64,000 nucleotides of DNA from Thermovirga lienii DSM 17291. GTDB taxonomy: Bacteria > Synergistota > Synergistia > Synergistales > Thermovirgaceae. Under the pieces are notes generated by a model. It was not told the origin of the DNA, ran no database searches, and saw only the letters and a program-made list of their open reading frames with translations. Below, in pieces: positions 13,419 through 17,666 of this stretch. Position 1 is the stretch's first letter. The number at the start of each line of letters is the position of its first letter. Made by a program: the position numbers and the translations under genes. The stretch covers positions 1,700,501 through 1,764,500 of the forward strand of contig CP003096.1 of assembly GCA_000233775.1 (NCBI GenBank). The letters run 5' to 3'.

Positions 13419-14201
<783 letters not shown>

Positions 14202-14417
14202 CTCTCTCACCCTCTCTTGGCGCAGCAGCACCAATCGGAAACTTCAGCTAACAACTTGTTAATATGTAAATTGGTACCCTTTTGCCTTTTTGTCTAGCCA
14301 AATACATTTGCCGCCTTTCGGCAGCCAAGTTGTTAAGATGTTCAACTGAATAATTTAGCCATACAATTCATTATAGCTCTGTTTTGCCATTCATGCAAAT
14401 ACCAAAATCCAAAATTA

Positions 14418-16232
14418 TTACTCTCCCAGCGCCTGCTGAAGGGCCAAAAGAGCCGAAAGGTTGTGTTGGACGTAATCTATCCGAATATCAAAATTAGCAA
14501 AACTTCTCCTTACTCCTCCGATCGACCTAGAGGGATTCTTCAAATGCATGGCCCATGAAGGCCCTATCTGCATCCTCAACAAAAAACCCCCTCCGAGCCT
14601 GAAGGTTTTCAGAATATCTTTCCCTTCCTCCTCCAATCCAGCCCTTTTAGCCATCCTGTAGGCCGCGCCTATTCCTTCCATCCTAGTTGCAGCCGGAGTA
14701 GACCTGGGATTTTTCCCAAACCCTCCTATCCAGTCGGGATAATATGAATCCTTGTGCTGAGCATCGCTTATGACTTTCGCCAACCTCAAAGCGTGCTTCA
14801 AGAAAACTCCTTCTTTGTCGTAACCACTGCGGGAAAGCTCATCCATTCCGTAAAGCAGCCAGTGGTCATGAGGAAGCTCCATATCCTGTTTCTTGCCATC
14901 CCTTATCTCGATAATATATCTTGCACCCCTTGCTGCCCCTTTAAGCCATTTATCCGAGTTTTCATCGTCCAACCTTCCCAGCATCGCCAACGCAAAAATA
15001 GCTTCGCCAGGGTAGTACACCGAGCGGAAATCAGACACCTCCCCCTCGGGAAAGACTTGCTTGTGTATATAGAACCTACCTGATTCATCTTGAACGGAAA
15101 GTATCCACTCTCCCATCCTCTTTACCAATGGCATGTATCTATTGTCACCTGTGGCCTCCATGTATTTAGCCAAACTCAGGACAGCCAGCCCATTACCCCC
15201 GAGCTTCACATAATCTCCCTCGACCAGGCATGCCATCTCCTCTCCATTTTTTCTGAAGGTTTTCACCTTGCTCAACATGTACTCTATGGCCCTTTTGGCT
15301 CCCTTTAGGACCTTTTTATCTCCAGTTTTCTCATAATACTGAAGCATGGAAAATATGGTCCCAGCATGCCGCAACATGTTATAACCGCCTTTGCTTCTGT
15401 CCTTGATGGGATCATAAACGTAAGTAAATTTACCCTTTGAATCCACGTTCCTTAGCAAGTAGTAAGCCGCAAGCCTTGTGGACTCAGCGATATCTTGATC
15501 TTCATACGAATCATATATTGGGCTTCCCCTGTACAGACGCTGTGCTCTCGAACCATCCCAAAAAACGCTCTCCGTTCTGAAGGCCACATAATCTGCTCTT
15601 TTAATCTCCAACATGGACCTTATCATTTTTTCAGCCGAAAGGTCGCCCCACAGTCCTATGGACGGAGGTTGCAATATTCCCTTATCATTCACTATTTTCT
15701 TTGCCAACACATCTTCTGGCGTAAATATGCAATTATCACAGCCTGGAAAGGCAAGTCCCCAAAGTCCTCTCTCTATGGGCAAGGGCTTTTGAATATTGGC
15801 CATCCTCCTGAACTCCATATCCCTTAAAACGTAGACCTTGAACCACCGAACATCAGACAAGTTGACCTTTTTCTCCCTCAGCCGGTTCACAGCATCTGCC
15901 AGAGCCACATATATATCGCTCCCCACACCGTAAGACGTGACGTTTATGCTTTTTCCGTTGCTGACACTCAAAAGTACCAGTTTTTCACTGCCTTTCTCCT
16001 TGGCCTGTTTTGAGGCGGCACCACCATTCCTCAAAAGCGAAAGAGTTTTTTCAACCAGCTCTTTCTCGTTGAAGAATACCGGTTCTGTGCTTGAGGACAG
16101 AATCTTACCCCAAGGAATGCTACCGCCAGCGAACCCAACACCCACCAAAGGTGTTATCATCATTAGAGACAAAAAAACGACGCTAAACACTACAGCTATT
16201 AAATTGCACCTTGATACTTTCAACCTCATCAC
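14418..16232 (-). CDS. Large exported protein of unknown function with alpha/alpha-toroid-like C-terminal domain
   Basis: 604 residues. A signal peptide ('LIAVVFSVVFLSLMMITPLVGVGFA') precedes an N-terminal domain of about 170 residues ('ALADAVNRLREKKVNLSDVRWFKVYVLRD', 'GLAFPGCDNCIFTPEDVLA') and a C-terminal domain of about 380 residues with repeating helical pairs ('GYNMLRHAGTIFSMLQYYEKTGDKKVLKGAKRAIEYML', 'VYYPGEAIFALAMLGRL', 'LPHDHWLLYGMDELSR'). Such helical-hairpin repeats occur in six-hairpin glycosidases, epimerases and terpenoid-cyclase folds. The Asp/Glu/His residues are suggestive of an enzyme, but I cannot name a substrate. The poly-Asp gene follows about 216 bp downstream on the same strand. 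Confidence 0.75.
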   Translation of the reverse strand: MMRLKVSRCNLIAVVFSVVFLSLMMITPLVGVGFAGGSIPWGKILSSSTEPVFFNEKELVEKTLSLLRNGGAASKQAKEKGSEKLVLLSVSNGKSINVTSYGVGSDIYVALADAVNRLREKKVNLSDVRWFKVYVLRDMEFRRMANIQKPLPIERGLWGLAFPGCDNCIFTPEDVLAKKIVNDKGILQPPSIGLWGDLSAEKMIRSMLEIKRADYVAFRTESVFWDGSRAQRLYRGSPIYDSYEDQDIAESTRLAAYYLLRNVDSKGKFTYVYDPIKDRSKGGYNMLRHAGTIFSMLQYYEKTGDKKVLKGAKRAIEYMLSKVKTFRKNGEEMACLVEGDYVKLGGNGLAVLSLAKYMEATGDNRYMPLVKRMGEWILSVQDESGRFYIHKQVFPEGEVSDFRSVYYPGEAIFALAMLGRLDDENSDKWLKGAARGARYIIEIRDGKKQDMELPHDHWLLYGMDELSRSGYDKEGVFLKHALRLAKVISDAQHKDSYYPDWIGGFGKNPRSTPAATRMEGIGAAYRMAKRAGLEEEGKDILKTFRLGGGFLLRMQIGPSWAMHLKNPSRSIGGVRRSFANFDIRIDYVQHNLSALLALQQALGE

Positions 16233-16345: not shown

Positions 16346-16373
16346 TTGACAAAAACAAAACAAGTGCCATAAT
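16346..16373 (+). promoter_or_regulatory. Promoter of the tandem c-di-GMP riboswitch transcript
   Basis: TTGACA at 16346-16351, a 16-base spacer and CATAAT at 16368-16373. Transcription would start near 16380, shortly before the first aptamer. Confidence 0.6.
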
Positions 16374-16396
16374 TGAACATAGGATTAGTGTTTGTC

Positions 16397-16499
16397 GGAA
16401 TAAGAGAATCCGAAAGGGCAAAACCGCCGAAAGGCGGTGGCGCAAAGCCAAGGGTCTAAAGCCTTTAAAGGCCATGACAGCCAGGCTGCCGAAGATTCC
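16397..16499 (+). ncRNA. Cyclic-di-GMP-I (GEMM-I) riboswitch, first copy
   Basis: The stretch matches the GEMM-I consensus: 'GGGCAAAACC', a GAAA tetraloop in 'CCGCCGAAAGGCGG', 'GGCGCAAAGCC', the tetraloop-receptor strand 'GGGTCTAAAGCC', and 'ATGACAGCCAGGCTGCCGAAG'. The closing stem can form between GAATC (16406-16410) and GATTC (16494-16498). The 5' strand GAATCCGAAAGG (16406-16417) is also the exact complement of 16526-16537 in the terminator downstream. Binding of c-di-GMP would thus hold this strand in the aptamer and release the terminator: an OFF switch. Confidence 0.9.
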
Positions 16500-16522
16500 A
16501 AAATAAGGAATAGTGCGGTGTG

Positions 16523-16558
16523 GCGCCTTTCGGATTCAAATCTGAAAGGCGCTTTTTT
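16523..16558 (+). terminator. Intrinsic terminator acting as expression platform of first riboswitch
   Basis: GCGCCTTTCGGA (16523-16534) pairs with TCTGAAAGGCGC (16541-16552), followed by six T (16553-16558). Its left arm shares twelve perfectly complementary bases with the 5' strand of the first aptamer, so terminator and antiterminator exclude each other. Confidence 0.85.
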
Positions 16559-16607
16559 GAGGCTTTTTGTTAAGAACAGAAAAATTCAACAAAACTGATC
16601 CTTTAGA

Positions 16608-16700
16608 AAAACCCGAAAGGGCAAAACCGTCGAAAGGCGGCGACGCAAAGCCGAGGGTCTAAAGCCTTTAAAGGCCATGACAGCCAGGCTGCCGAAGGTA
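16608..16700 (+). ncRNA. Cyclic-di-GMP-I (GEMM-I) riboswitch, second copy
   Basis: Nearly identical in sequence to the first copy through the core: 'AGGGCAAAACCGTCGAAAGGCGGCGACGCAAAGCC' elements and 'GGGTCTAAAGCCTTTAAAGGCCATGACAGCCAGGCTGCCGAAGG'. It lies between the terminator and the hydrolase gene. No second intrinsic terminator follows. Instead TTTCCTC (16713-16719) is complementary to GAGGAAA (16767-16773), which includes the likely ribosome site and the first base of the start codon, so translational control is possible. Confidence 0.88.
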
Positions 16701-16772
16701 GAGAACATATCCTTTCCTCCCTTCAGGCCGCCTGGCGAGAGAACGAAAAGATCGCTGGGGGGCGACGAGGAA

Positions 16773-17666
16773 ATGAAACACCTCCTTAAGAATAAAACAG
16801 CAAAGTTCGTTGCCACACTTATAATTCTCCTGCTTTTGGTTGCGGAAGCCGCAGAATCCTGCACGCTGTGGGCCGCGACAGGATCTGCAACCAGCGGCAA
16901 TATCACCATATTGGCCAAGAATCGAGACTGGAAGCCTACTCAAAAACATTATTTAAGGAAAGTTACACCAACCCAAGGTTATTCATACGTGGGTCTTTTC
17001 GCGGTGGATGAAAATGGATCAGGTTTAAAGGCTGGGGTCAACGAAAAGGGCTTAGCGGTGGTAACAGCTACCGTTTCCGTTGTACCAAAGGATAAAAGGA
17101 AAACCAAGGACAAGGACGCCCTCTCCTCACACAAGATCCTCACTTCTTTCTCATCGGTGGATGAGGTGCTGGCAAACCTTGACAGGTTCAAAAGAGTTTC
17201 CTTCTACATGATCGCAGACAAAGAAAAGATCGCCGTCGTCGAGGTGGCTCCCGGAGGCAAGAACACCGTAAGAGTAGTGGATGACGGCTTCATAGCCCAA
17301 ACCAATCACTACATCTCGCCAAAAATGCAAAGATACAACATAAAAATCCCATCCAGCAGCAAAACGCGTTACGAACGTATAATAAGCCTATTGCAGGCCA
17401 AGGCGGGAAACTTGACCATGGAGGACTTTGTGGCCTTCAGCAACGACCAAAGCGCAGGCCCCGATGAGAGCATCTTCCGCACCGGAAGCTCTCCTAAAAG
17501 ATCTCAAACCGTGGCCCAATGGATAATCGCCATTCCTAAGGGGGACAGTCCCAGGCTGTATGTAACCATGAAGGACCCAGGGAAGCCCTTCCGAGCGTTT
17601 TCTGGTGCTCTAGAACCCACCTTCTGGAGGGGTGACGTTGCCAAGGCCGCTAAGGTTGACGGCTAA
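16773..17666 (+). CDS. Secreted Ntn hydrolase, linear amide C-N hydrolase/acyltransferase type
   Basis: About 297 residues from the ATG at 16773; the longer frame from 16677 begins inside the second riboswitch. The N-terminus is a signal peptide (MKHLLKNKTAKFVATLIILLLL) ending 'AEAAES', immediately followed by Cys30 in CTLWAATGSATSGNITILAKNRDW. That pattern (a new N-terminal Cys nucleophile, then '..GRNxDW') is that of choloylglycine hydrolase / penicillin-acylase V / AAT relatives that act as N-terminal nucleophile hydrolases. The substrate could be a bile-salt-like amide, an N-acyl amino acid or a signal lactone; the sequence does not decide. Expression is placed under two c-di-GMP riboswitches. 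Confidence 0.85.
   Translation: MKHLLKNKTAKFVATLIILLLLVAEAAESCTLWAATGSATSGNITILAKNRDWKPTQKHYLRKVTPTQGYSYVGLFAVDENGSGLKAGVNEKGLAVVTATVSVVPKDKRKTKDKDALSSHKILTSFSSVDEVLANLDRFKRVSFYMIADKEKIAVVEVAPGGKNTVRVVDDGFIAQTNHYISPKMQRYNIKIPSSSKTRYERIISLLQAKAGNLTMEDFVAFSNDQSAGPDESIFRTGSSPKRSQTVAQWIIAIPKGDSPRLYVTMKDPGKPFRAFSGALEPTFWRGDVAKAAKVDG

Follow-up and report, generated by a model that had tools for sequence, protein, structure and literature searches.

Tandem c-di-GMP-I riboswitches are common, and a survey (Sherlock et al. 2022, PMC9481103) counted 347 doublets and 12 triplets. The same survey describes 'bi-mechanism' tandems, chiefly of the SAM-II/SAM-V type, and notes that many doublet SAM-II systems look bi-mechanism; its bi-mechanism table, for which not all tandems were evaluated, lists no c-di-GMP-I pair. 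A literature search yielded nothing relevant on c-di-GMP riboswitches of Thermovirga or the Synergistetes, nor on acylases under their control.

The window analysed here is a stretch of 64,000 nucleotides of Thermovirga lienii DSM 17291 (contig CP003096.1, positions 1,700,501 to 1,764,500), in which two c-di-GMP-I aptamers precede a gene for an exported hydrolase. In the reading that we prefer, with a probability of roughly 60%, these are two complete riboswitches of the c-di-GMP-I class placed in series; each would be an OFF switch, the first acting on transcription and the second on translation. The aptamers, a terminator, the complementarities and the conserved arrangement were seen directly; the directions of both switches were inferred from folding. 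The promoter, the aptamers and the target gene are as follows.

16346-16373, + strand: sigma-70-type promoter (TTGACA, 16-nt spacer, TG and CATAAT; 11 of 12 matches)
16407-16493, + strand: c-di-GMP-I aptamer 1 (RF01051, 89.4 bits)
16406-16410 with 16494-16498, + strand: P1 of aptamer 1 (GAATC/GATTC)
16610-16696, + strand: c-di-GMP-I aptamer 2 (RF01051, 84.9 bits)
16611-16613 with 16697-16699, + strand: P1 of aptamer 2, weak, 3 bp (ACC/GGT)
16773-17666, + strand: 297-aa Ntn hydrolase of the C45/AAT family, exported (signal peptide, residues 1-29; Cys30 predicted as catalytic)

A first-pass annotation of the sequence had called two near-identical GEMM-I aptamers, and had named a covariance-model score below threshold for either copy as grounds for giving up the call. 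Scanning with cmscan bore the call out: both copies are full-length matches to RF01051 (model 1-87 of 87), neither falls below the gathering score of 35 bits, and they are 94% identical to each other. The ligand-contacting G at Rfam position 11, which we take to be position 20 of the Vc2 structure (G20), is kept in both copies and in 14 of 14 aligned aptamers. An A instead of G at that position characterizes cGAMP-type variants (PMC9481103); c-di-GMP rather than cGAMP is therefore the expected ligand of both aptamers. Furthermore, 11 GGDEF matches in the genome make c-di-GMP synthesis plausible. A similar TTGACA/TATAAN promoter is present, by eye, at the equivalent position in the leaders of G005 and of the g6 relatives described below.

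The genome (about 2.0 Mb; 1,999,646 bases in two contigs) contains three RF01051 matches, two of which form the tandem. The third (locus L003, 1501-1590; genome C1:134022-134111) precedes an orphan protein of about 167 aa and has a transposase-like gene just upstream; a similar-looking protein follows the copy of this riboswitch in a congener, G005 (L050).

Relatives of the hydrolase were missed by a single-protein search of the genome contigs and were recovered by a profile search. The protein is present in 8 of 188 Synergistota genomes. Seven of these are close homologues, namely those of the genome of the window (G000) and of the congener G005, which matches Thermovirga sp. GB_MAG10_013 (both genus g1, Thermovirga), and those of five species of genus g6 in another family (G015-G019), whose hydrolases are 46-49% identical over the seven-homologue alignment. 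Tandem c-di-GMP-I aptamers lie directly upstream of the gene in all seven, and the tandem is therefore no recent accident. The eighth Synergistota homologue (G178, 36% identity) has no such aptamer upstream, and no c-di-GMP-I riboswitch was found at the searched hydrolase loci of 23 relatives outside the Synergistota. The patchy distribution suggests either a transfer of gene plus leader, or losses.

The two aptamer copies in Thermovirga show signs of homogenisation: in the P3 region, one indel and two substitutions that are species-specific are common to both copies (window and L005), against one copy-specific site, in P1, whereas copies 1 and 2 of g6 retain copy-specific differences. At other Synergistota loci with c-di-GMP-I riboswitches (L048, L043-L045), the genes downstream appear, in translations judged by eye, to be of the type IV pilus/type II secretion kind (GspF-like, pilin) or to encode polysaccharide-biosynthesis-like membrane proteins. 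Two genomes of another family, G131 and G132 (L054, L055, L052), contain 18 and 14 c-di-GMP-I matches, some of them clustered, which is far above the rest of the phylum.

That the target gene encodes a secreted Ntn hydrolase, as had been proposed from the sequence, is confirmed by its signal peptide and by profile scores of 93.8 bits for PF03417 (cut-off 23.2) and 107.7 bits for NF040521 (cut-off 85). Cys30, Arg51, Asp52, Asn178 and Arg236 are invariant across the seven homologues, all of which have an A-x-A or A-x-S site, its Ala at -3 invariant, and after it a CTLW motif. Since Cys30 stands right after this site, cleavage by signal peptidase would by itself expose the nucleophile. The only solved relative found by sequence is the C45/AAT-like Ntn hydrolase CV2077 of Chromobacterium violaceum (PDB 3GVZ, 162 bits), annotated as uncharacterised, with which the CTLW start of the mature enzyme is shared; unlike at the locus here, no c-di-GMP riboswitch lies close to the gene in its Chromobacterium relatives. 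The further ideas that the hydrolase is shut off during surface growth, and what its substrate might be, are speculation.

Two neighbouring genes on the - strand may be mentioned. The protein encoded at 14418-16232 (604 aa), divergent from the riboswitch leader, has no Pfam/NCBIfam match. The gene at 13419-14234 encodes 52 consecutive aspartates at 13742-13899 (28 GAT and 24 GAC codons), the coding DNA of which is a TCA/TCG-type tandem repeat; its predicted product has an apparent N-terminal membrane/signal segment, and a Gly/Asn-rich tail after the Asp run.

Switch 1 consists of aptamer 1 and the following two elements, which share one strand.

16406-16417, + strand: antiterminator arm, the 5' switching strand of aptamer 1 (GAATCCGAAAGG; 12-bp perfect complement of 16526-16537)
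16522-16558, + strand: intrinsic terminator of switch 1 (left arm 16526-16537, CCTTTCGGATTC, common to the antiterminator)

The 12-base complementarity of the terminator's left arm to the aptamer, pointed out earlier, was perfect as claimed, and the duplex stands out from 500 dinucleotide shuffles (z = -6.4, p 0.002), as does the pairing of the corresponding strands in G005 (z -4.2, p 0.004). When c-di-GMP is absent, the 5' strand of aptamer 1 would pair with the left terminator arm and transcription would continue; when it is present, the aptamer would retain its 5' strand, the terminator would form and transcription would stop. An intrinsic terminator and an antiterminator that excludes the aptamer were found for copy 1 in all seven species, although the terminator script missed that of G017, which is plain in folding. 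Ligand and tertiary contacts lie outside the folding model, and the switch readings are those of sequence and secondary structure. Within the model, P1 is displaced in transcripts ending at the terminator left arm (P <= 0.01 at 37 °C), and the terminator reaches a probability of 0.93-1.00 in aptamer-constrained full transcripts, both in seven of seven species. The full-length transcript of the window's switch 1 already favours the terminator without ligand at equilibrium (0.76 at 37 °C), so the switching must be kinetic.

The strand that serves as antiterminator differs between the two groups, 5' in both Thermovirga genomes and 3' in g6, with the same OFF logic. In the five g6 species the terminator left arm pairs better with the 3' strand of the aptamer (GCCGAAGG), a pairing that is singly weaker against shuffles (p 0.03-0.29). 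The core of the g6 left arm is almost unchanged (4 pairwise differences) and the right arm is more variable (14), the pattern that a left arm with two partners should produce. At other Synergistota c-di-GMP-I loci with a script-found terminator, the left arm usually also pairs better with the 3' strand; L023 is the only other 5'-strand call, a weak one, and a few loci are ambiguous. Folding, complementarity and terminator, with the same logic kept in seven genomes, give good support to the annotation of copy 1 as OFF at the level of transcription and make a convincing case that switch 1 would work in this way.

Switch 2 would be encountered by read-through transcripts only, and is made up of aptamer 2 and three further segments.

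16683-16698, + strand: antisequestor 5' arm, the 3' switching strand of aptamer 2 (GCCAGGCTGCCGAAGG; pairs with 16720-16736)
16713-16738, + strand: SD sequestor 5' arm (TTTCCTC and CCTGGCGA; overlaps the antisequestor 3' arm, 16720-16736)
16752-16773, + strand: SD sequestor 3' arm (TCGCTGGG, GAGGAAA; includes the SD-like GGGGGG, 16757-16762)

The second aptamer had been described as lacking a terminator, and indeed none was found between aptamer 2 and the ATG; an automatic call for copy 2 of G017 (L061), across the start codon and weak (-9.2), was discarded. The pairing of TTTCCTC (16713-16719) with GAGGAAA (16767-16773) proposed for the ribosome site needs qualification: the two are complementary, but the last base of GAGGAAA is also the first of the start codon (16773), its GAGG lies only a few bases from the ATG, and GGGGGG, which aligns with AAGGAGG in G005, is the likelier SD. 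The pairing belongs to a longer hairpin that includes CCTGGCGA/TCGCTGGG and encloses this SD-like stretch. Inside the 5' arm of the sequestor lies the 3' arm of the antisequestor (CCTTCAGGCCGCCTGGC, 16720-16736), complementary to GCCAGGCTGCCGAAGG. If no ligand is bound, the 3' half of the second aptamer would pair with the downstream CCUUCAGGCCGCCUGGC, which would open the SD hairpin so that translation could start; with ligand, the 3' half would stay in the aptamer and the freed strand would close the hairpin over SD and AUG.

In scans of the whole downstream leader, the duplex of the aptamer-2 3' half with the downstream arm has a z of -4.3 (p 0.002) in the window and of -2.9 (p 0.006) in G005. 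The antisequestor hairpin of the window (16683-16698 with 16720-16736) has a z of -5.6 and the SD-sequestering hairpin one of -2.5, against a stronger -5.3 for its G005 homologue, values that are flattered by hand-chosen segment limits. An antisequestor formed by the 5' strand (GAAAGG with CCTTTC) was rejected (z = +1.2 against shuffles). The arms of the sequestor have changed on both sides between the two genomes and still match (UUUCCUC/GAGGAAA and GGCGA/UCGCU in the window, UCCCUUC/GAAGGGA and GGUGA/UCAUC in G005); these two genomes are the Thermovirga sample, in which covariation for switch 2 is minimal and too few sequences are present for covariation statistics. In folding, the truncated transcript of the window without ligand forms the antisequestor with a probability of 1.00, and locking the aptamer in the window's leader at 58 °C lowers the accessibility of the SD from 0.43 to 0.25 and of the start from 0.85 to 0.60. 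A bound aptamer would keep its 3' half and free the sequestor arm, so sequestration should be favoured and the switch would be OFF. The SD hairpin of G005 is so stable that it forms at equilibrium even without ligand, and kinetic control would therefore be needed there.

Mutual exclusion of sequestor and antisequestor was thus found in both Thermovirga genomes. Translational control by copy 2, as annotated earlier, is plausible on complementarity and folding from these two genomes, to which the antisequestor coupled to the aptamer is added here; that copy 2 acts as a translational OFF switch by this route is likewise plausible, with moderate thermodynamic support. The 'different outputs' claimed for the two copies hold for platform and level of control, and not for sign, which is apparently OFF in both.

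The relatives in g6 bear on whether copy 2 does anything at all. Their region before the gene is rich in C, a local CCCCC/GGGGG hairpin lies at the SD, the second platform gave no hairpin signal above shuffles in any of the five species, and folding of free and bound forms changes the SD hardly at all, G019 excepted. Switch 1 might thus work alone, with aptamer 2 a duplicate that binds c-di-GMP with little output beside a constitutive RBS hairpin. A P1 of just 3 bp in the window, an SD that in most species is paired whether the aptamer is free or bound, and reported cases of riboswitch copies that leave their genes unaffected (Bc1, PMC11218506) would fit such a duplicate. A dead copy should decay, however, and aptamer 2 retains the full consensus at similar scores in seven species; in g6 it has conserved features of its own, and in both Thermovirga genomes the antisequestor arm is conserved, so that we regard an idle copy 2 as rather unlikely.

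A second switch could also act through Rho-dependent termination or RNA stability, the ligand freeing a C/U-rich segment as a candidate Rho loading site. All seven leaders are C/U-rich from aptamer 2 to the ATG, the missing intrinsic terminator would suit this route, and riboswitches that join translational and Rho effects have been described (PMC10907184); the changed yet complementary arms of both Thermovirga SD hairpins point to masking of the SD instead, and we consider a Rho-based switch improbable. More improbable still are switches of opposite sign, for example OFF then ON, with a band-pass response to c-di-GMP. Incoherent transcription-translation control has been reported for one c-di-GMP-I riboswitch (PMC11218506), and the signs assigned here come from models; against a positive second switch, SD and AUG are less accessible in the aptamer-locked state of the window than in the antisequestor state, and the antisequestor takes the very arm that the sequestor requires.

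Two OFF switches in series, our preferred reading, would yield the secreted hydrolase at low c-di-GMP, and the dose response would be sharper only if both aptamers bind with similar affinity. We propose more tentatively, at somewhat less than even odds, an opposite-strand homotypic bi-mechanism riboswitch, in which transcription responds to copy 1 by way of its 5' strand and translation to copy 2 by way of its 3' half, keeping the platforms from confusing the copies while gene conversion keeps the cores alike. Readout through opposite strands would help to stop the two platforms from interfering. Because the 3' halves are near-identical, aptamer 1 could possibly cross-pair with the sequestor arm of copy 2. 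If true, the locus would represent transcription-then-translation control made from two copies of one c-di-GMP aptamer, and a natural test of why identical sensors are stacked, for a sharper response or for silencing existing mRNA. In a phylum that has received little study, it would also link c-di-GMP signalling to a family of orphan, secreted Ntn hydrolases and give a handle on the biological role of that family.

Tandem c-di-GMP-I riboswitches and bi-mechanism riboswitches are each already known; the combination proposed here, with opposite-strand readout, would be new. The c-di-GMP-I tandems surveyed so far (PMC9481103, PMC4759541) are likewise complete units in series before one gene, for which a sharper, 'digital' response is expected; in the Bc3-5 triple tandem (PMC4759541) all are transcriptional ON switches, whereas here both are apparently OFF switches and a terminator is missing from the second. 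Cd1 of Clostridioides difficile (PMC9262584) is, like switch 1, a transcriptional OFF switch in which the ligand leads to the terminator fold; its antiterminator uses the aptamer-stabilising 3' strand, as in g6, whereas switch 1 of Thermovirga uses the 5' strand. A parallel in logic is the SAM-II/SAM-V tandem (PMC9481103), in which the first unit also terminates transcription, the second masks the RBS, and both repress for one ligand. The transcriptional level of such a bi-mechanism system is present at the Thermovirga locus, and the translational level is read from anatomy and folding; SAM-II/SAM-V joins two aptamer classes, whereas here two nearly identical copies of one class would do the same.
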